Assembly: GCA_017481945.1 (NCBI GenBank)
Contig: JAFUOJ010000006.1
Span: forward strand, 1 to 64,000
DNA: 64,000 bases
Direction: 5' to 3'
DNA from: Parabacteroides sp.
GTDB taxonomy: Bacteria > Bacteroidota > Bacteroidia > Bacteroidales > Tannerellaceae
Position numbers and translations under genes: made by a program. The notes beneath the pieces are model-generated. The model was not told the origin of the DNA, ran no database searches, and worked only from the letters and a program-made list of their open reading frames with translations. This document shows positions 43,660 to 64,000 of this stretch, in pieces; position 1 is the first letter of the stretch, and every line of letters starts with the position of its first letter.

Positions 43660-44030
43660 AGGATTTTGGTTCTAAGTGGTTAAAAATAACTTCGACCTCC
43701 TCCGATTTTATTTCCAAGCGGTTGAAACTAACTTCCACCCCCTCCGATTCTATTTCCAAGCGGTTGAAACTAACTTCCACCGCCTCCGATTTTATTTCCA
43801 AGCGGTTGAAAATACTTTCCACCGCCTCCGATTTTATTTCCAAGTGGTTGAAACTAATTTCCACCGCCTCCGATTCTATTTCCAAGCGGTTGAAACTAAT
43901 TTCCACCGCCTCCGATTCTATTTCCAAGTGGTTGAAACTAATTTCCACCGCCTCCGATTCTATTTCTAAGTGGTTGAAACTAATTTCCACTGCCTCCGAA
44001 AGTCTTTTTAAGTGGTTAAAACTAAAAAAG
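43660..44030. repeat. 42-bp tandem repeat array (nine phased anchors)
   Basis: The anchor AAGYGGTTRAAA recurs at 43674, 43716, 43758, 43800, 43842, 43884, 43926, 43968 and 44010: an exact 42-bp period. The unit reads roughly CCTCCGATTYTATTTCCAAG plus YGGTTGAAACTAAYTTCCAC plus CG. Because 42 is a multiple of 3, long frames stay open on both strands (43643-43990 minus; 43676-43969 and 43722-44120 plus), but none keeps a consistent synonymous bias, has a clear start, or looks like a folded protein. It fills most of the 617-bp gap between the DUF6261 start and the glycosyltransferase; the rest holds only the promoter of the latter. Confidence 0.9.
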
Positions 44031-53118: not shown

Positions 53119-53754
53119 ATGAATTTCATTTCTAAACTATTTAAGAAGAAAGAGGAGGAAACTGAAGTCGTATCAAAGGGTTCTGTAGAGGAATTTGTTA
53201 CGCTGATTCGTGTATATTACCAAGCTGTCATGGCAGTACAATTAGGTGTTACGAATCTTAATATACTAAACGATATGGCATTGTTTAAACGTATGTTGAA
53301 GATTCCGACACAGAATAACAAATTAGGTGTTGCTGAAAAATCACGTGCCCGTAAAGTCTTAATGCAAGAATATGGTTTAAATGAAAACTTCTTTAAAGAA
53401 ATAGACGCTTCTATCAAGAAGAATTGTAAAAACCAGAATGATATTAAGTCTTATTTCATCATGTATCAAGGATTCAATAATGACTTATTCTCATTATTGG
53501 ATAACTTAATGCAATGGAAGTTCCGTTTCTCCATGTTAGTTAAGAAACTATTATATGCACAAACGCAGAAAACAATTCATGAAATTGTAACTCGTTCAGA
53601 ATGGAAAGATATTAACGTGCAAAAAGTTGCTTGGAGAATTCGTAAATATAAAGAGACTTTAGGGTATTCAGAACAATGGATGGTAGACTTTGTCTATAAT
53701 GTTGTACTGATGGCAAGAGAAGACGCAAAAAAGAAAAAGAAAGACGATAAGTAA
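53119..53754 (+). CDS. conserved hypothetical protein, helix-rich and basic
   Basis: A 211-residue soluble protein without signal peptide or TM. It opens MNFISKLFKKKEEETEVV, holds several long helices (VEEFVTLIRVYYQAVMAVQLG, RKVLMQEYGLNENFFKEID) and ends in a strongly basic tail, DAKKKKKDDK. I recognise it only as a type of protein conserved in Bacteroidales; no domain can be named. Its stop codon overlaps by 1 base with the start of the next gene, a uracil-DNA-glycosylase-fold protein, so the two are translationally coupled. Confidence 0.75.
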   Translation: MNFISKLFKKKEEETEVVSKGSVEEFVTLIRVYYQAVMAVQLGVTNLNILNDMALFKRMLKIPTQNNKLGVAEKSRARKVLMQEYGLNENFFKEIDASIKKNCKNQNDIKSYFIMYQGFNNDLFSLLDNLMQWKFRFSMLVKKLLYAQTQKTIHEIVTRSEWKDINVQKVAWRIRKYKETLGYSEQWMVDFVYNVVLMAREDAKKKKKDDK

Positions 53755-54332
53755 TGACAACCGAACAACATCCTTTGGGGTTCTTTCTCCCAGAAAATAC
53801 TCAATTGTTGATGTTGGGGAGTTTTCCACCTCCTCGCGTTCGTTGGTCTATGAACTTTTATTACCCGAATATCCAAAACGATATGTGGAGGATACTCGGG
53901 TATCTCTTTTACAAGGATCGAAATTTCTTCTTAGAAACGAAGAAAAACTTCAGTGAAGAAAAAGCAAAAACATTCTGCCGAGAGATTGGAATCGGAATTG
54001 GAGATACGGCTGTTGAGGTTGTACGATTAAAAAACAATGCGTCTGACAATTTCCTACAAGTCATAAAAGCATTAGATCCTGTCGAAGTTTTATCCCAAAT
54101 CCCCCATTGTAGAGCATTGGTTGTTACCGGACAAAAAGCGATGGACACACTTCTTTCTGTATTACCTCCTATTGAGGAACCTGTAATAGGTTCATATTCA
54201 AACTTTACTCTATTAGAACGATCTTTTAGACTTTATCGAATGCCTTCTTCTTCTCGTGCCTATCCTAAACCATTAGAAGAAAAAGCAGCTATTTATCATA
54301 AAATGTTCAAGGAACTAGATTTACTCAAATAG
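53754..54332 (+). CDS. uracil-DNA-glycosylase superfamily protein
   Basis: A 192-residue protein with the UDG-like fold: LLMLGSFPPPRVRWSMNFYYPN takes the place of motif 1 (GxxPG..) and the C-terminal LYRMPSSSRAYPKP the place of the HPS/NPS motif 2; LVVTGQKAM is the central strand. Neither motif has the canonical catalytic Asp/His of family 1, so the activity is uncertain (family-6-like or nucleotide-recognition). It is coupled to the preceding hypothetical gene by a 1-base overlap. Confidence 0.8.
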   Translation: MTTEQHPLGFFLPENTQLLMLGSFPPPRVRWSMNFYYPNIQNDMWRILGYLFYKDRNFFLETKKNFSEEKAKTFCREIGIGIGDTAVEVVRLKNNASDNFLQVIKALDPVEVLSQIPHCRALVVTGQKAMDTLLSVLPPIEEPVIGSYSNFTLLERSFRLYRMPSSSRAYPKPLEEKAAIYHKMFKELDLLK

Positions 54333-54355: not shown

Positions 54356-54934
54356 TTAAAGTTCAATATCCTCTCCAGAGACAAGACCATTCATAATTGC
54401 ATAAAAAGTAAGACCAGATACAGTCTTAATACCCAATTTAGCAGTTATATTCTTTCGATGGGTCAGCACCGTATTTAAGCTTATACATAATTTATCTGCT
54501 ATTTCTTTATTAGTTCCTCCTTTAACTATTAACTGAAGAACTTCAACTTCACGCACTGACAACTCTTTATTACTGTCATTAGATAAGATCGTATTGTCTC
54601 CTGAAAAATATTGTTTTAATTGTTCAATAATCACCTCTTGGGAAGCCTGGACATAGACATAATTAATGGATGTATTTTTTCTTACCTCGATACTATCAGC
54701 TGTTAAAACAATTGTTTTACTACGACGAGGTAAAAAGAAATCAACATTTAAGACAAATAGAGTTGCATTGGTAAAGAAATAATCAAATATATCACAGTGG
54801 GAATTGACTAAAGCTTCAAATGTATAGAAATAGGAAATCTCTACTGGAGGGAAATAATTAACCAATAAACTTTGTAACCCCAAACATTGCAATGTATCAG
54901 GCAATAAAATTGCGATATGTTTAATTGACTGCAT
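54356..54934 (-). CDS. LuxR-type regulator with a degenerate receiver-like N-terminus
   Basis: A 192-residue protein. The C-terminal LuxR HTH (about 125-190) is clear: LSVREVEVLQLIVKGGTNKE, IADKLCISLNTVLTHRKNI, TAKLGIKTVSGL. The N-terminal 110 residues are receiver-sized and alternate helix/strand but lack the usual phosphoacceptor Asp environment (FVLNVDFFLPRRS in its place) and the Lys pattern, so it is unlikely to be phosphorylated. It is the last gene of a five-gene run, 13 bases after the ScdA/YtfE-like protein, which is the likely partner in sensing. Confidence 0.85.
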   Translation of the reverse strand: MQSIKHIAILLPDTLQCLGLQSLLVNYFPPVEISYFYTFEALVNSHCDIFDYFFTNATLFVLNVDFFLPRRSKTIVLTADSIEVRKNTSINYVYVQASQEVIIEQLKQYFSGDNTILSNDSNKELSVREVEVLQLIVKGGTNKEIADKLCISLNTVLTHRKNITAKLGIKTVSGLTFYAIMNGLVSGEDIEL

Positions 54935-54947
54935 TCAAAGAAAAAAA

Positions 54948-55664
54948 TTAAGAACAAAGTTTCTCCATGGCAGCAACCATTGGGGTCAAAATTCGAAAAC
55001 GAATACGATTATGTTGTTTTATATCTTTCTCTAAACTACTAATCGCAAAGATAACGGCATAACATAAATTCTCATTATAATTACCAGAGAGATGTTTAAT
55101 CATAATACTCTTCAAATCTGCTAATAAAGCTTCAATCGTATCTTCTACTTGATTCCCTAAATCCAATAAAAGGTCAGGATTAGAATCCCCTTGTACTTGA
55201 TTCATCCCTAATCTTTCACTTAAAGAAAGACAATAAGGGAACCACTCTTTCTCATCCTTCAAGATTCTATTCATCAATTCTTCTTTGAAAGATTGGAAAA
55301 ATTTACCTATCAAACAAAGTGTACTGTTCGTTGGACCACTACTCTGTGCGATAAATGAACCTAAATGACGTTCTATATTAGGAATCTGATATCGTAAATA
55401 GGATTCATTGATCTTAATTAAATAATCGATAATCTGTGACATATGAAATGTTTGTAATTTCTTCTCAGGAAAATATTCTTCATTTAAAAAGGTATTTATT
55501 ACCGTCAAAAGAAAATCACAATCCAATTCATATTCTACACATATTTCTTGAACCGATTTATCTCCTAATCCTAAACGGATTCCAAACCGATTAATAACAG
55601 GAATGAGTGAGAGGTGTTCTTCCACCACCTCACTCATTTGCATATTAGAATATACTAAAGGCAT
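54948..55664 (-). CDS. ScdA/YtfE-like (hemerythrin-fold) protein with lost metal ligands
   Basis: A 238-residue protein. Residues 1-60 resemble the ScdA N-terminal domain (DUF542: VINRFGIRLGLGDKSVQEIC), which usually also holds a CC motif that is absent here. Residues 70-238 follow the hemerythrin-like helices of RIC/YtfE proteins, yet the His-x3-His positions are INESYLRYQ (83-92), the next is MNRILKDEKEWFPY (131-144, Glu kept, His lost), and the last keeps only H218 in KQHNR. A normal di-iron centre is therefore unlikely. It lies 4 bases after the isomerase and 13 before the LuxR regulator. Role in redox/NO sensing is inference. Confidence 0.7.
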   Translation of the reverse strand: MPLVYSNMQMSEVVEEHLSLIPVINRFGIRLGLGDKSVQEICVEYELDCDFLLTVINTFLNEEYFPEKKLQTFHMSQIIDYLIKINESYLRYQIPNIERHLGSFIAQSSGPTNSTLCLIGKFFQSFKEELMNRILKDEKEWFPYCLSLSERLGMNQVQGDSNPDLLLDLGNQVEDTIEALLADLKSIMIKHLSGNYNENLCYAVIFAISSLEKDIKQHNRIRFRILTPMVAAMEKLCS

Positions 55665-55668
55665 ACTT

Positions 55669-56607
55669 TTATGCTTCTTCCCATTGTTTACGAATAAGTT
55701 CTACTGCAGCAGGGACTAACACACTTTTATCTCCTTTACAACCACATTCAAAACTTACGTATTTATTATACCCAAGCATTTTAAGTCCCTTGAAACCATT
55801 TACATAGTTGTCTGCTTCTCCGTCTTCACCAGGCATACTACGGCGTTTACGACTTGCAATATGTACATGTTGTAAATACTCTCCAGCTGACAAAAAAGCA
55901 CCCATATCAGAAGTTTCCTCCCAAGTCATGTGCCAAAAATCACCCATACAACGTACGCCTAGATTATTGATATCACGACAAATCGATGCAGCGTCTGCAA
56001 CTTGACGAAGATAAAAAGCTTCTTTTCTGTTCAAAGGCTCAAAAATAACAGTTGTACCATGCTCTTTTGCAAAATTCCCCATTTCATTAAATTGCTCACA
56101 CAAGAAATCACGAGTTTCTTGCGTATGAGGCATTACTGGTTTTTGAGAATTGAAAGCCGGAACAATAATCACACCTGTTGATTCCAATTCACCAGCAGCC
56201 GCCATAATCTCTTTCATCGTATCCATACACTGTTTACGAATAGCTGGATCTGTTGAAAGAATAAATCCCTGGAAACCAGCGCAAATAGCACTTACCTTAA
56301 TAGTACGACCATTTAAAGCCTCTTTAATTTCCTTTACACGATCTTTTAGATTACGACCACCTGGTTCAAATCCTACAACCCCTAATTTCTCCATATAGTC
56401 GAATTTCTCATTCAGAGTTTCTCCTATTGGAGTTCCTTCTTGAAAAGAAATCTTTAGTTCTGCATTATTTTTACAACAAGCTTTCTTTTCGGCAGGACAT
56501 TCTTCTTTAGCAGGAGTAGCTCCCCCACAAGCTACAAGTGTTGAGCTACCAGCAACAGCTGCACTCGCTAAAGTTGTTCTTAAAAAGTCTCTTCTATTAA
56601 ATGCCAT
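55669..56607 (-). CDS. Tat-exported sugar phosphate isomerase/epimerase (AP-endonuclease-2 fold)
   Basis: A 312-residue protein with a twin-arginine signal NRRDFLRTTLASAAV and a lipobox-like LVACGG (Cys27), so it is probably an extracytoplasmic lipoprotein. After a Cys-rich linker (ECPAEKKACCKN) the TIM barrel carries metal ligands in IFEPLNRKE, CMGDFWHM, HVHIASRKRR and VSFECGC. The substrate is unknown; in related gut loci these enzymes work with Gfo/Idh/MocA oxidoreductases on keto-sugars. It is 3 bases downstream of such an oxidoreductase and 4 bases upstream of the hemerythrin-like gene. Confidence 0.85.
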   Translation of the reverse strand: MAFNRRDFLRTTLASAAVAGSSTLVACGGATPAKEECPAEKKACCKNNAELKISFQEGTPIGETLNEKFDYMEKLGVVGFEPGGRNLKDRVKEIKEALNGRTIKVSAICAGFQGFILSTDPAIRKQCMDTMKEIMAAAGELESTGVIIVPAFNSQKPVMPHTQETRDFLCEQFNEMGNFAKEHGTTVIFEPLNRKEAFYLRQVADAASICRDINNLGVRCMGDFWHMTWEETSDMGAFLSAGEYLQHVHIASRKRRSMPGEDGEADNYVNGFKGLKMLGYNKYVSFECGCKGDKSVLVPAAVELIRKQWEEA

Positions 56608-56610
56608 AAC

Positions 56611-57993
56611 TTATTTTTTCTTTTCATCACGAGGTTTACCAGGAACTGGTACTGTAAATCCACTCATATCCATCTTACCCAGATTCAAATCCTTTGGAGT
56701 ATAATCCAATGGAGAAGCGGTCATTGCATCCCATGTTGTTTCTGCACCCGTATAAGCAGCTTCACGTCCCATAATAGCAGCCATATTAGAAACAGCTGTT
56801 TCTGAAGCTTGTTCTATCGGTTTATTAGCACGAATACAATTTATCCAGTTTACATGTTCCAATGTATAAGGATTTGTCTGTTTATAAGTAGCCTTTTCAG
56901 CTTCATGATCATATTGCCAGATTACATTTCCTGCCAAGTCTTTAATTACCTGACCTGAACTATTCCAAGAGCCTTTTGTACCTTGAATAAATTCACTCAC
57001 ATTATTTGCACAACCATCAATTTGGCGACACATACTATGTAAATGGATACCATTTTCCATCGTAAAATCAACACTGAAGTTATCATACTGATCACCAGTG
57101 ATACGACGTTGACGAGAACCGAAAGCAACTGCCTTAACAGGTTTCAAACCACTAAACCATGTAAATACATCAATATTATGAACGTGCTGTTCTACAATAT
57201 GATCACCAGATAACCACTTCCAGTTAACCCAGTCTTTAATCATATATTCACAGTCATTCCAATCTTTTTGACGTTCACGGAACCACAACATATTCTGATT
57301 CCAATATACTGTACCACCTGTAATTTCACCAATAGCACCTTCCATTATCTTTTGGTAAGCTGCCACATAACTACGTTGATGGTGACGTTGTGTACCAGTT
57401 ACAACACACAAATTCTTAGCTTGTGCCTGTTTTGCTGTAGCCATAATTGTACGATAACCCACTGGATCTACACAGATCGGCTTTTCCAAGAATGAATGTT
57501 TACCTTTTTCAGTAGCATATTGGAAATGTACAGGACGGAATACAGGAGGAGTAGCAATAATAACCACATCTACACCACTATCAATCACCTGTTTGTAAGC
57601 GTCTAATCCCACGAATCTTTTTTCAGCAGGGATTTCAACTCCTTTTTCTTTTAGCTTATCAGCCAAAGCGTCAACTCTTTCTTTAAATGTATCACCCAAA
57701 GCAACAATTGTAACGCCATTTGCAGCTTCCAAAAAGTTCAAAGCAGCACCAGAACCACGTCCACCACAACCAATAACACCGGCTTTTAATTCTTTTCCAT
57801 CATTTGCTTTATCTGGCAATTCCGGAATGTAATAAGTTCCTGGCTCTTTTAACGGTTTATTGGCAGCACTTTCAGCACCTCCAGCACATGAGGTTAATAC
57901 GCTTGCACTACCTGTTCCGATTGCACCTAGTGCACCGGCCATAGCTGAACTCTTTAAAAAAGATCTTCTGCTAATACTGTTTTCTTTCTTCAT
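56611..57993 (-). CDS. Tat-exported Gfo/Idh/MocA-family oxidoreductase
   Basis: A 460-residue protein. Twin-arginine signal SRRSFLKSSAMAGALG (8-23), then SVLTSCAGG, a lipobox-like site at Cys36. The Rossmann domain has GVIGCGGRGSG (72-82) and the EKP-type catalytic Lys in FLEKPICVDPVG. The C-terminal domain includes HIVEQHVHNIDVFTWFSG with the conserved His residues. Exported members of this family carry tightly held NAD(P) and swap hydride between sugars or feed electrons to a partner. The start is 33 bases after the tetraheme-SUMF1 gene, pointing to that cytochrome as electron partner (inference). Confidence 0.88.
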   Translation of the reverse strand: MKKENSISRRSFLKSSAMAGALGAIGTGSASVLTSCAGGAESAANKPLKEPGTYYIPELPDKANDGKELKAGVIGCGGRGSGAALNFLEAANGVTIVALGDTFKERVDALADKLKEKGVEIPAEKRFVGLDAYKQVIDSGVDVVIIATPPVFRPVHFQYATEKGKHSFLEKPICVDPVGYRTIMATAKQAQAKNLCVVTGTQRHHQRSYVAAYQKIMEGAIGEITGGTVYWNQNMLWFRERQKDWNDCEYMIKDWVNWKWLSGDHIVEQHVHNIDVFTWFSGLKPVKAVAFGSRQRRITGDQYDNFSVDFTMENGIHLHSMCRQIDGCANNVSEFIQGTKGSWNSSGQVIKDLAGNVIWQYDHEAEKATYKQTNPYTLEHVNWINCIRANKPIEQASETAVSNMAAIMGREAAYTGAETTWDAMTASPLDYTPKDLNLGKMDMSGFTVPVPGKPRDEKKK

Positions 57994-58026
57994 AATATGG
58001 ATATTTTTAGATTCTTATAATCATTA

Positions 58027-59610
58027 TTATTTTGCTCCAATAGTTGGATCTGGTTCACATACCACACGGAATCCGATCCCACGAATATCTGAATACCACC
58101 AAATACTCTTTGGATTTTGAGGGTCTGTTTTAAGCCACGCGTCATGTTTTGTATAATCACGTGAGGCCGAACGAACATCCGCGGCATCTGATGTATAATT
58201 ACCTCCACGAACAACCCATTCTTCACCATCGGTTACTAACGGATTTGTCACACTCTCCCCACCTTTACTATAAGCTTTAGGATCATATTTATCCGCACAA
58301 TACTCCATCACATTACCCAACATATTTTTCAAACCAAATGGATTTGCCTTTACCTCTTTAGGTTCTTGAGTTCTATTTTTACTATTCTTTGCATAAATAA
58401 CAAAAGAACTAATACTGTCTGTTTTCGCTTCAAAGAACTTACGCCAAAAACCTTGATCAGAAAAATCAGAAGGATCACCTACAAAGAAATAGGGTGTCTC
58501 CGAACCTCCACGAGCTGCATATTCCCATTCAGCCTCAGTCGGTAAACGATATTTTTTTCCTGTCTTTTTAGACAACCACTGACAAAATGTTTCTGCGGCA
58601 TAATGAGTCATTGTAATAGCTGGACGTTCTCCACCTCCCCATCCTTGATCAGGGAATCCAAATGGAGGTGTAGGACCCGAAATCGCGTCAACCTCAGGGT
58701 CACTACTATTATTTGCATAAACTGTTTCTGGAGGAGTACGTCCTTCGCTCATTGTCTGTCCATAAAACGCCCAATACTGATCCCAAGTAACTTCGACCTC
58801 TGCCATAAAGAATGGGCTTACTGTTACATTTCTAACTGGAGATTCATCCTCTTTATGGAAAGGTTCTTTATCTGTACTTCCCATTTTGAAAGAACCACCA
58901 GGGATAGCCACCATCTTAAATGAAACAGCAGTTCCAGGAATCTGTTCCGTATAATCAATGAAAGAAGTAACAGTAGTCGCTTCTTTAAAATAAAGACTTG
59001 TATCAACAGAAGTTGCAGCTGTTGGGATTCCAGTTAGCTTACCATGACTATAATCTGGATTATAGTGTCCAGCGTCAAGATGGCAACTGATACATTGTAA
59101 ATCTAATTTCTTTTCATTTTCATCATAATAAAGATGAGCGGTAATACCATCTTGGGTAATTCCTTCAGGGAATAAATTTTGATGACACTCCTTACATGAT
59201 TCATTTGGAATATACTTAACTGCATGTTCTAATTCAGACTTCATATTCCAATCGAAATCTGCACTATCTTTCGTCAAATAAGACCAAACATCTTTTAATC
59301 CCAATTTTGCTTTTGCTGAATAATAATCCCAAGTATTATTTTGTGGCGGGAGGTGACAAGCTACACAATGCGTTTTAACTCCACTACCATTGTTCACATG
59401 TTTAGAAAGTTTCCAGCTATCCTGTACATGTGGATGAACATGACATACCATACAAGATTCATCTGATGAAAAATACACAGAAGTATTATAAATGGCAATC
59501 ATAATACCTGCACCTAAAAGCAATCCTATAAAAAGAATAAAAGACTTACTTTTAAACAGGTTCTTCTTTTCTTTAGAAGAATAAATGTTTGAGTTCTTAT
59601 TTGCTGTCAT
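58027..59610 (-). CDS. membrane tetraheme cytochrome c fused to a SUMF1/FGE-like domain
   Basis: A 527-residue fusion. TM helix at about 23-44. Four haem-binding CxxCH motifs, CMVCH (53-57), CVACH (82-86), CKECH (139-143) and CISCH (173-177), in the NapC/NirT/NrfH layout that oxidises menaquinol. From about 228 a SUMF1 domain follows: MVAIPGGSFKMGS, RLPTEAEWEYAARGG, NPFGLKNMLGNVMEYCADKY, and WVVRGGNY then RSASRDY, ending GIGFRVV. The two copper/active cysteines that FGE has after the RGG motif are replaced here by Ser and Val, so formylglycine synthesis is unlikely. First gene of the tight run down to 54356. Confidence 0.9.
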   Translation of the reverse strand: MTANKNSNIYSSKEKKNLFKSKSFILFIGLLLGAGIMIAIYNTSVYFSSDESCMVCHVHPHVQDSWKLSKHVNNGSGVKTHCVACHLPPQNNTWDYYSAKAKLGLKDVWSYLTKDSADFDWNMKSELEHAVKYIPNESCKECHQNLFPEGITQDGITAHLYYDENEKKLDLQCISCHLDAGHYNPDYSHGKLTGIPTAATSVDTSLYFKEATTVTSFIDYTEQIPGTAVSFKMVAIPGGSFKMGSTDKEPFHKEDESPVRNVTVSPFFMAEVEVTWDQYWAFYGQTMSEGRTPPETVYANNSSDPEVDAISGPTPPFGFPDQGWGGGERPAITMTHYAAETFCQWLSKKTGKKYRLPTEAEWEYAARGGSETPYFFVGDPSDFSDQGFWRKFFEAKTDSISSFVIYAKNSKNRTQEPKEVKANPFGLKNMLGNVMEYCADKYDPKAYSKGGESVTNPLVTDGEEWVVRGGNYTSDAADVRSASRDYTKHDAWLKTDPQNPKSIWWYSDIRGIGFRVVCEPDPTIGAK

Positions 59611-59750
59611 TTTTGTTTATGGAATTCAATTTATTGTTAATCTTAGTTAGAAAACTCGGCATAAAAGTAATATTTTTTCATAAAATATAAAAGGTTCAAT
59701 TTGTTATTTAACGTAATATGTATCCACATTATGGTTTTTTACCAGATATA

Positions 59751-59800
59751 AAATAAGAGCCGTTTGTTTTTACATATATAAAGACAAACGGCTCTTATTT
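59751..59800 (-). terminator. terminator of the beta-galactosidase gene
   Basis: A perfect 17-bp stem (59751-59767 with 59784-59800; core AAGAGCCGTTTGT) starts 6 bases after the stop. It separates the galactosidase unit from the cytochrome-led run, so the latter must have its own promoter in the 140 bp between 59611 and 59750; I see no good TAnnTTTG match there. Confidence 0.85.
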
Positions 59801-59805
59801 ATAAA

Positions 59806-62916
<3,111 letters not shown>

Positions 62917-62929
62917 TCATTAATTGTTT

Positions 62930-64000
62930 TTATTCAATCCATTTTTGCCATTTCATTTCATTATTGTACCCAGAAGCAACCATAGTCTCTATAAATTGCA
63001 TACCTCGTACTCCATCATAAACCGTAGGGAAATCCAAATACTTTTCATTAGGAGTCTCTCCTTTCTTCTGAGCTCTCACTGTCAATGAAAAATTACGATA
63101 AATATTGGCAAATGCCTCTATAAACCCTTCTGGATGCCCTGCCGGAGTACGTGTATTCCATAAAGACAGTTCACTTAAATATCCATTATTACCGATATTT
63201 AAAATTTCAGTTGGGCGATTTCCCCATTTCAAAAGGAGAGTATTAGGTTCCATTTGTCGCCATTCTAAACCTCCCTTATCCCCATAAACACGAATACGAA
63301 TATTATTAGCTTCTCCTGTACAAACTTGAGTAGCCATTAAAACACCCGTAACGTCGTTTTCATATCTCAAAAAAGCGGCCCCGTCATCATCAATAGGTCG
63401 CCCAGGAACAAACGATTTCAAATCCGCACAAAGCTCTTGTACCTTTAAACCCGTAATATACTCACTCAAATGCCAAGCATGCGTTCCAATATCACCTACA
63501 CAGCCTGCTTTTCCCGATCGTTTAGGGTCACAACGCCATCCCGCATTATTTCCACCCAACAACTCAATTCGTTCAGAAAGCCAACCTTGGGTATACTCTA
63601 CATATACACGACGCAATTTTCCTAATTCACCTTTTGCTATACGAGCCTTTGCCTCCTTCACTGCCGGATAAGCAGAATATACATGAGTAAGCGCTAATAC
63701 AAGTCCTGTTTCTTCTACTTTCTGTTGAAGTTGTTTTGCCTCTTCCAACGAAAAAGTCATGGGTTTATCAATTACAACATGAAAACCTCTTTCCAAAGCC
63801 ATCATCGCTGGTTCAAAATGCCATCGATTAGGAGTAACAATCGTCACAAAATCCATACGTTCTCCTTCCGGTAATGTCATCTCATGCTCAAACATTTCTT
63901 GATATGTATTATAAATACGATCTTCGGGTAAAAAATAAGAACGTCCTGAAGATTTTGAGATAGCAGGATCTACACTAAAACAGCCACAAACCAATTCTAT
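62930..64000 (-). CDS. Gfo/Idh/MocA-family oxidoreductase, partial (N-terminus off the right edge)
   Basis: About 356 codons are visible to the edge; the codons at 63995-64000 read on in frame (Ile-Glu before the TTG at 63994), so that TTG is not the start and the cofactor GxGxxG motif lies outside the window. Visible: FVTIVTPNRWHFEPAMMALE, the catalytic-Lys motif VIDKPMTFSLEEA, GDIGTHAWHLSEYITG with conserved His, and a C-terminal ends near WQKWIE. It shares the fold of the Tat-exported protein at 56611 but differs in sequence and is probably cytoplasmic; whether it has a signal peptide cannot be seen. It is cotranscribed with the beta-galactosidase. Confidence 0.9.
   Translation of the reverse strand: MELVCGCFSVDPAISKSSGRSYFLPEDRIYNTYQEMFEHEMTLPEGERMDFVTIVTPNRWHFEPAMMALERGFHVVIDKPMTFSLEEAKQLQQKVEETGLVLALTHVYSAYPAVKEAKARIAKGELGKLRRVYVEYTQGWLSERIELLGGNNAGWRCDPKRSGKAGCVGDIGTHAWHLSEYITGLKVQELCADLKSFVPGRPIDDDGAAFLRYENDVTGVLMATQVCTGEANNIRIRVYGDKGGLEWRQMEPNTLLLKWGNRPTEILNIGNNGYLSELSLWNTRTPAGHPEGFIEAFANIYRNFSLTVRAQKKGETPNEKYLDFPTVYDGVRGMQFIETMVASGYNNEMKWQKWIE

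Follow-up and report, generated by a model that had tools for sequence, protein, structure and literature searches.

A tetraheme cytochrome fused to a SUMF1-like domain and its exported Gfo/Idh/MocA partner in Bacteroidales: a possible link between periplasmic sugars and the quinone pool

INTRODUCTION

Exported sugar dehydrogenases that look NAD dependent recur in Bacteroidota and Planctomycetota. NAD is not freely turned over outside the cytoplasm, and the electron acceptor of these enzymes is therefore a puzzle. How such an enzyme might pass on its electrons is the question raised by a five-gene run in a Parabacteroides sp. contig (JAFUOJ010000006.1, assembly GCA_017481945.1), whose first 64,000 nucleotides were analyzed and are called the window here. 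In this run, an oxidoreductase of the Gfo/Idh/MocA family (Gfo) with a twin-arginine translocation (Tat) signal follows a tetraheme cytochrome fused to a SUMF1-like domain. With a probability of about one half, we read the locus as a periplasmic sugar dehydrogenase module, probably acting as a glycoside 3-dehydrogenase, that is wired to the quinone pool through flavin mononucleotide (FMN) on the SUMF1-like domain and through the hemes. An initial annotation of the window had proposed a periplasmic sugar-quinone pathway under the control of a one-off regulator pair responding to nitric oxide (NO), O2 or redox state; the cytochrome-Gfo part of this proposal held up, a diiron site as the NO or O2 sensor was not supported, and the pair proved not to be one-off.

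RESULTS

Five-gene operon in the window

The run consists of five minus-strand open reading frames (ORFs) with intergenic gaps of 33, 3, 4 and 13 bases according to the ORF list and the sequence of the window, and the order, gaps and coordinates were exactly those first annotated. The genes and the sites discussed below are as follows (loci and genomes are cited by our own L and G handles).

58027..59610, minus strand: 527 amino acids, NrfH/NapC-like tetraheme cytochrome with a hydrophobic N-terminal stretch, in one chain with a SUMF1-like domain; Pfam PF03264 and PF03781, four CXXCH motifs
59440..59454, minus strand: heme motif 1 (CXXCH), C53-x-x-C-H57, then the conserved His59; compared with NrfH of L248
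59353..59367, minus strand: heme motif 2 (CXXCH), residues 82-86
59182..59196, minus strand: heme motif 3 (CXXCH), residues 139-143
59080..59094, minus strand: heme motif 4 (CXXCH), residues 173-177
58669..58689, minus strand: D308-A-I-S-G-P-T314 of the SUMF1-like domain, a candidate site of flavinylation by ApbE that differs from the canonical motif at one residue
56611..57993, minus strand: Gfo/Idh/MocA oxidoreductase with Tat signal and lipobox, 460 amino acids; Pfam, intact GxGGRG and EKP (E170-K171-P172)
55669..56607, minus strand: xylose-isomerase-like protein with Tat-type signal and lipobox, 312 amino acids, a putative keto-sugar isomerase, epimerase or lyase; Pfam and PDB matches
54948..55664, minus strand: ScdA/YtfE-like protein, 238 amino acids, with presumed diiron ligand positions mostly lost; weak TIGR03652 match, alignment
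54356..54934, minus strand: LuxR-type regulator, 192 amino acids; LuxR/GerE 60 bits

The first protein matched FGE-sulfatase with 140 bits and Cytochrom_NNT (PF03264) with 83.3 bits (cut-off 24.1), and the latter match, together with CXXCH motifs at residues 53, 82, 139 and 173, places it among the NapC/NrfH tetraheme cytochromes. Gfo showed the GFO_IDH_MocA domain, the Rossmann and C-terminal domains of its family with GxGxxG and EKP, and a TAT_signal score of 26.8 bits, above the cut-off of 22.7. The xylose-isomerase-like protein, a TIM barrel (AP_endonuc_2, 92.7 bits), carried a weaker Tat signal of 17.6 bits, under the cut-off. No Pfam match was found for the ScdA-like protein, whose TIGR03652 score of 46.9 bits was sub-threshold (cut-off 204.7), and Pfam detected no receiver domain in the LuxR-type protein. 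The closest named relatives of the window protein, among the best 80 of 549 relatives and on the tree, were from Parabacteroides.

By its sequence, the window cytochrome is a relative of NrfH, yet not NrfH. It scored 62.5 bits with the NrfH equivalog model TIGR03153, below the cut-off of 134.2, which the true NrfH of G205 passes with 157.1 bits, and it lay under the cut-offs of the NrfH and NapC/NirT models alike. The NrfH model had no other match in the window's genome, which is incomplete (45 contigs, 83% complete). Whereas true NrfH (L248) has CXXCHxM at heme 1, the window-type cytochromes have His for Met (CXXCHxH), and this H59 was found in at least 95% of 44 cytochrome rows and in 15 of 15 in a second set. 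The hydrophobic N-terminal stretch, the four CXXCH motifs and PF03264 are shared with the NapC/NirT/NrfH tetraheme quinol dehydrogenases, which differ in that the window cytochrome is fused to a SUMF1-like domain and has Gfo, not NrfA, as its neighbor. Two adjoining genes with four CXXCH motifs each, nrfHA-like by eye, are located at L072:4698-6799, near the cytochrome-Gfo genes and divergent from them.

Pairing of cytochrome and Gfo within Bacteroidales

Among 295 Bacteroidales genomes, the cytochrome was detected in 39 and Gfo in 39, with 38 genomes common to both; only one partner was seen in G154, where a contig-end fragment is involved, and in G160. The loci around all 46 cytochrome matches were examined, 44 of them with a usable cytochrome gene (L076 and L077 held fragments only), and in 39 of the 44 Gfo was the next gene downstream on the same strand. 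All 39 adjoining Gfo proteins carried the Tat motif. More widely, the RRxF signal was present in 81/81 paired Gfo proteins, 52 with a fused and 29 with an unfused SUMF1 partner, a count that, like that of the Gfo residues below, includes both L033 and L112, which are the same record. TatC was found in 37/39 cytochrome-bearing genomes (246/295 order-wide). Since the order recurs in 39/44 loci across Bacteroidales, it is not due to chance, and Gfo and the SUMF1-cytochrome very likely form a functional unit. The proposal that a quinone-type cytochrome works with a periplasmic sugar oxidoreductase is thus strongly backed by gene order, co-occurrence and Tat signals.

Twelve loci had the window-type isomerase. 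The ScdA-like and LuxR genes were seen in 4, all from the window's family; isomerase and regulators are therefore additions to a core formed by the cytochrome-Gfo pair. The complete five-gene order was confined to the window's family among the loci examined (window, L033, L034, and L035). Among named relatives it was seen in L108, L109 and L112, and L110 has four genes of the order before the contig ends. In most loci seen, the ScdA-LuxR part was split from the run that had been annotated as one unit, an outcome that the initial annotation had named as refuting its proposal, while cytochrome and Gfo were kept together. The L039 cytochrome is 69% identical to that of the window and its Gfo only 46%, and from such comparisons the partners can apparently be swapped.

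The SUMF1-like subfamily beyond Bacteroidales

Outside the order, a search of 395 genomes from the phylum found the full-length protein once (G637), and 8 further matches there covered the SUMF1-like part only. The named-genome scan, which comprised the best 80 of 549 relatives, yielded SUMF1-only members from Flavobacteria, Sphingobacteria, Chitinophagia, Planctomycetota, Verrucomicrobiota, Acidobacteriota, and others. Unfused loci were drawn from both scans, and their hosts belong to Bacteroidota, Planctomycetota, Verrucomicrobiota, Acidobacteriota, Rhodothermota, and Balneolota. Gfo was encoded within three genes in 33/49 unfused loci and was the next gene downstream, on either strand, in 29. 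This pairing of unfused SUMF1 with Gfo across phyla means that the partnership is probably older than the tetraheme fusion. The initial annotation had overlooked the SUMF1 domain as an older Gfo partner, often near apbE and with a flavinylation-like motif. As to the sample, one locus of the unfused group, L075, has a tetraheme gene cut short by the end of its contig, and L112 was excluded from the neighbor-gene counts, the tree and the apbE counts and included in the 49-locus Gfo count and the motif alignment and counts.

In the tree, which has 107 members, all tetraheme proteins except one contig-end piece grouped together. Four further loci encode the subfamily domain in one chain with PSCyt1 cytochrome domains, one or two in number:

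L126:9503-10906, SUMF1-PSCyt1 fusion
L137:3173-5203, SUMF1-PSCyt1 fusion
L140:7867-9747, SUMF1-PSCyt1 fusion
L148:9242-10966, SUMF1-PSCyt1 fusion

Three of these fell among Verrucomicrobiota and the fourth beside two Planctomycetota. With the tetraheme and the separate PSCyt1 fusions, the SUMF1-like domain has thus been joined to unrelated heme proteins at least twice. What looks like a second recurrent context of subfamily SUMF1 genes is found in L099, L101, L133 and L141, where Gfo is missing and the gene is followed by one of about 180 amino acids and by one for a large protein with two CXXCH motifs; apbE is present in L101 and L141.

Candidate flavinylation site and apbE neighbors

According to passages of PMC12052999, FMN is linked by ApbE to the final position of the motif D-x-x-[S/T]-G-A-[S/T], and replacement of the motif Ala by Val about halves flavinylation; Pro at this position does not come up in these passages. 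The SUMF1 subfamily has a conserved site, D-x-x-[S/T]-x-x-[T/S], which reads D-A-I-S-G-A-T in some members. The position of D308 is Asp in 107/107 aligned members and that of T314 is Thr or Ser in 107/107, with Thr in all 58 tetraheme members; the loop bearing both is partly missing in PvdO. The canonical D..[ST]GA[ST] was found in 14/106 members, all 14 at this column, compared with 2/1307 other ORFs and 0/24 other SUMF1 matches, and its bearers form two separate groups, one in Bacteroidales and one in Flavobacteriia. The window's G-P-T ending is also present in L129.

The gene apbE (PF02424) was located within three genes of 17/51 unfused loci, in 13 on the same strand, the 51 being the 49 loci of the Gfo count with L169 and L174 added by hand. 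Counted per ORF, apbE made up 17/277 near and 2/482 far genes (Fisher P = 2e-6). Of 14 loci that the same scan gave for other SUMF1 proteins, 0 had apbE nearby. The clusters include SUMF1-Gfo-apbE-isomerase (L100, L124, and L157) and consecutive SUMF1-apbE-Gfo (L129). An apbE gene was present somewhere in 38/39 cytochrome-bearing genomes searched (38 of the order, G154 being left out, plus G637), with two copies in the window's genome; the miss, G011, is 61% complete. Its presence in a genome is expected wherever Nqr or Rnf occurs. Few "TGAT" matches were seen in Gfo itself, where they represent the Rossmann loop and are not conserved, and a flavin site on Gfo was rejected.

Known ApbE-flavinylated extracytosolic carriers comprise FMN-bind, DUF2271, DUF3570, NqrB/RnfD, Flavodoxin_4, and FMN_red, as listed in passages of two surveys of ApbE substrates (PMC8238504, PMC11334425). 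Those passages nominate substrates by an apbE gene nearby and by a site resembling D-x-x-[S/T]-G-A-[S/T], each of which applies to part of the SUMF1-like subfamily. The SUMF1 fold is not named in them, and the main text of both surveys has 0 mentions of Gfo, sulfatase, and formylglycine. In open-access papers, none of the matches listed joined flavinylation or ApbE with SUMF1, FGE or Gfo. On this sequence evidence, a covalent flavin on the SUMF1 domain has roughly even odds. The wider proposal, in which this SUMF1/FGE-like fold would be an ApbE-flavinylated carrier and a widespread adaptor through which Tat-exported, NAD-bound Gfo releases its electrons outside the cytoplasm, and its weld to the tetraheme cytochrome in Bacteroidales a single-chain flavocytochrome, is tentative and somewhat short of an even chance.

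Gfo residues and keto-sugar context

Residues K171, H272, D275 and D101 were conserved in at least 95% of paired Gfo proteins, and the nucleotide loop was kept. We assume the usual roles for D101 after the second strand, for the EKP lysine, and for H272 and D275; D101 suggests NAD as the cofactor. The isomerase had its best PDB match in 3kws (518 bits), followed by 6wn6, a 3-keto-D-glucoside 4-epimerase (84 bits). Genes for 3-keto-disaccharide hydrolases were noticed in L037 and L154. Isomerase, ThuA or hydrolase genes occurred within four genes in 39/57 tetraheme loci (43/416 near ORFs, 4/303 far) and in 16/49 unfused ones, a count that describes the neighborhood rather than tests it, as the queries were picked from genes seen near the operon. 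The keto-glycoside context suggested at the outset is backed by these neighbors.

Passages of PMC11300592 describe BT2158 of B. thetaiotaomicron as a periplasmic, catabolic glycoside 3-dehydrogenase. With its family model NF058561, the window Gfo scored 29.3 bits against a cut-off of 750 and was rejected as a member, and oxidation of the sugar at C3 by the window Gfo therefore stays a suggestion only. The 3-keto-glycoside pathway of BT2157-BT2158, as passages of PMC11300592 and PMC9007349 present it, likewise has an exported oxidoreductase, BT2158 being Gfo-type by its NCBIfam match, and shares with many copies of the present locus the nearby isomerases, ThuA and 3-keto-disaccharide hydrolases. 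Unlike in BT2157-BT2158, an electron partner is encoded beside the window Gfo. In LacABC-type lactose/glucoside 3-dehydrogenases, which have a cytochrome c subunit, periplasmic sugar oxidation feeds a c-type cytochrome, and the dehydrogenase fold is unrelated to Gfo. Their cytochrome is unrelated to the window's tetraheme cytochrome as well; the downstream hydrolase family is the same in some of our loci (passages of PMC9007349). In open-access papers, no report was found that brings together Gfo, cytochrome c, periplasm and Tat signal, and none among the matches listed joined NrfH, NapC or tetraheme with Gfo or SUMF1.

ScdA-like and LuxR-type pair

Relatives of the ScdA-like protein were found in 198/295 Bacteroidales genomes, and the ScdA-like gene had a LuxR-type neighbor in 30 of the 30 best loci, with Gfo or isomerase genes beside the pair in only 4; the pair is thus far from the one-off arrangement it was taken for. 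Four single-chain ScdA-LuxR fusions (L114:8880-9824, L257:4213-5094, L258:4286-5179, and L259:4046-4942) suggest that the two work as one sensor-regulator unit. The L114 fusion, with ligand-like His kept by eye, lies divergent beside a cytochrome-Gfo-isomerase cluster, apparently a second link of such a regulator to this pathway. In L260 to L263, the pair lies between apparent housekeeping genes and a gene for a large secreted protein, judged by eye from the sequence.

Sensing of NO or O2 by a diiron site was rejected for the window protein, in which 5/6 presumed ligands, taken from the conserved His and Glu of relatives, are replaced (N86, R133, D137, E174, and Arg for the last Glu) and only H218 is kept. 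By these ligands the window copy falls outside the RIC/ScdA/YtfE diiron proteins. The positions of N86, R133, D137 and E174 were replaced in 17/17 members of the window clade, with H in 12 and N in 5 at position 218, while in a sister group all four His were kept in 13/13 members. The weak TIGR03652 likeness to the ScdA/YtfE (RIC) iron-sulfur repair proteins spans window residues 12-171; the replaced ligand positions and the coupling or fusion to LuxR set the present proteins apart. The window pair may respond to another signal or work by way of protein contact. A second ScdA-like gene of the window's genome (L265:3552-5538) has LuxR-type genes on both sides and ligand-like His kept by eye. 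None of the open-access papers found brought together three of the four subjects ScdA, Bacteroides, LuxR, and hemerythrin.

Operon borders and other features of the window

One further feature marks the border of the operon:

59747..59803, minus strand: hairpin, likely terminator at the operon border, directly 3' of the upstream beta-galactosidase gene; from folding energy

The hairpin has a folding energy of -26.6 kcal/mol (z -9.5) and was not listed by a simple terminator scan of the window. Downstream, the gene at 53754-54332 is convergent. A Bacteroides-type promoter pattern with at most 2 mismatches gave 217 matches in the window against 168 expected. Those located ahead of the operon all have two mismatches, and we therefore claim no promoter. 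The beta-galactosidase gene (59806-62904, minus strand) and a second Gfo gene (62930-64000, minus strand) are upstream, in the same order as in L033/L112 and L036. Elsewhere in the window, a 42-base unit is repeated 8.5 times in tandem at 43670-44025, with 91% matches; this array is open on both strands.

DISCUSSION

Electron flow between a sugar and quinone is likely in this system. In the chain that we favor, electrons would pass from the sugar to NAD in Gfo, to FMN on the SUMF1-like domain, to the hemes and to menaquinone. Gfo would fold with NAD in the cytoplasm, be exported by Tat, become lipid anchored, and oxidize a sugar or glycoside, possibly at C3, with the NADH staying in its own site. 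The SUMF1-like domain would dock on Gfo and take the hydride on an FMN that ApbE would have attached covalently to Thr314. A flavin placed there would supply the missing two-to-one-electron step, handing single electrons to the four c-type hemes and then to menaquinone, from which respiration would proceed, in Bacteroidales probably to fumarate. The Tat-type isomerase-like protein would process the keto-sugar, and in Tannerellaceae the ScdA-like and LuxR proteins would control the operon.

Several results weigh against this chain. Gfo does not adjoin the cytochrome on its strand in 5/44 loci (L041, L042, L045, L046, and L051), and in several genomes Gfo relatives outnumber cytochromes (by at least five to one in G038 and G270, five candidates per genome having been scored), so Gfo may also work without a cytochrome of its own. 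The sugar substrate and the electron direction rest on neighbor genes only. For the flavin, the canonical motif is restricted to 14 of the 106 members, most unfused ones having R-P-[T/S], and the window's DAISGPT has Pro in place of the canonical Ala; the relaxed motif of 102/106 members also occurs in 5/24 other SUMF1 matches and 19/1307 other ORFs. The gene apbE was beside 0/57 tetraheme loci, its clustering follows descent (16 positive tree rows need only 6 changes), and solo SUMF1 with apbE and no Gfo nearby occurs in L101, L127, L141, L148 and L168. To our knowledge, no flavin has been reported on any SUMF1 fold.

The same complex could run in reverse, with the cytochrome taking electrons from menaquinol and Gfo reducing a periplasmic keto-sugar, so that the sugar is a respiratory electron sink. 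NapC/NrfH relatives usually oxidize quinol and feed periplasmic reductases, and the neighbor genes handle keto-sugars, both in keeping with reversal. The cytochrome, however, scores under the NrfH and NapC/NirT cut-offs and has a conserved His for the heme-1 Met, so its redox role may differ, and the related exported BT2158 is catabolic in passages of PMC11300592; we consider reversed flow unlikely. That the SUMF1-like domain carries no flavin and is a docking or glycan-binding module, with apbE serving another protein and the hemes reached directly or by another carrier, is doubtful. It would suit the SUMF1 folds in GldK, GldJ and PorK (from model names and PorK PDB chains), which we take to be structural parts of the type IX secretion system, as well as the lack of apbE beside tetraheme genes and the non-canonical motif of most members. 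It leaves unexplained why all 107 members keep D308 and T/S314 in spite of a loop partly missing in PvdO and why apbE co-localizes with this subfamily but with none of the 14 loci of other SUMF1 proteins. Hydride transfer to heme without flavin is, moreover, chemically awkward.

A Gfo working in a closed cycle, like the Zymomonas glucose-fructose oxidoreductase or redox-neutral glycosidases, would account for the intact NAD motif and EKP and for one cytochrome possibly facing several Gfo copies, the cytochrome then merely repairing enzyme stuck with NADH or serving something else. That Gfo is paired with the cytochrome across Bacteroidales and with SUMF1 in several phyla makes this improbable. 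Sulfatase maturation, with the SUMF1 domain as a formylglycine-generating enzyme (FGE), is suggested by PF03781 and by FGE chains among the PDB matches and has next to no chance of being right: the aligned Cys of RGGSY-x-C is Ser in the window, the listed subfamily segments have no Cys pair, and Pfam detected no sulfatase gene within the five-gene operon. The Cys pair after RGGSY is presumably catalytic in FGE, and the missing cysteine led us to reject this function.

For the exported dehydrogenases of Bacteroidota and Planctomycetota, the acceptor puzzle has a concrete and testable answer in a partner that is conserved and bears hemes as well as a candidate flavin-attachment motif. If the module proposed here is real, one more protein fold would be added to the substrates of ApbE, a class of proteins named for the sulfatase-modifying factor in family models would gain a function, and the keto-sugar chemistry of gut bacteria would be tied directly to respiration.

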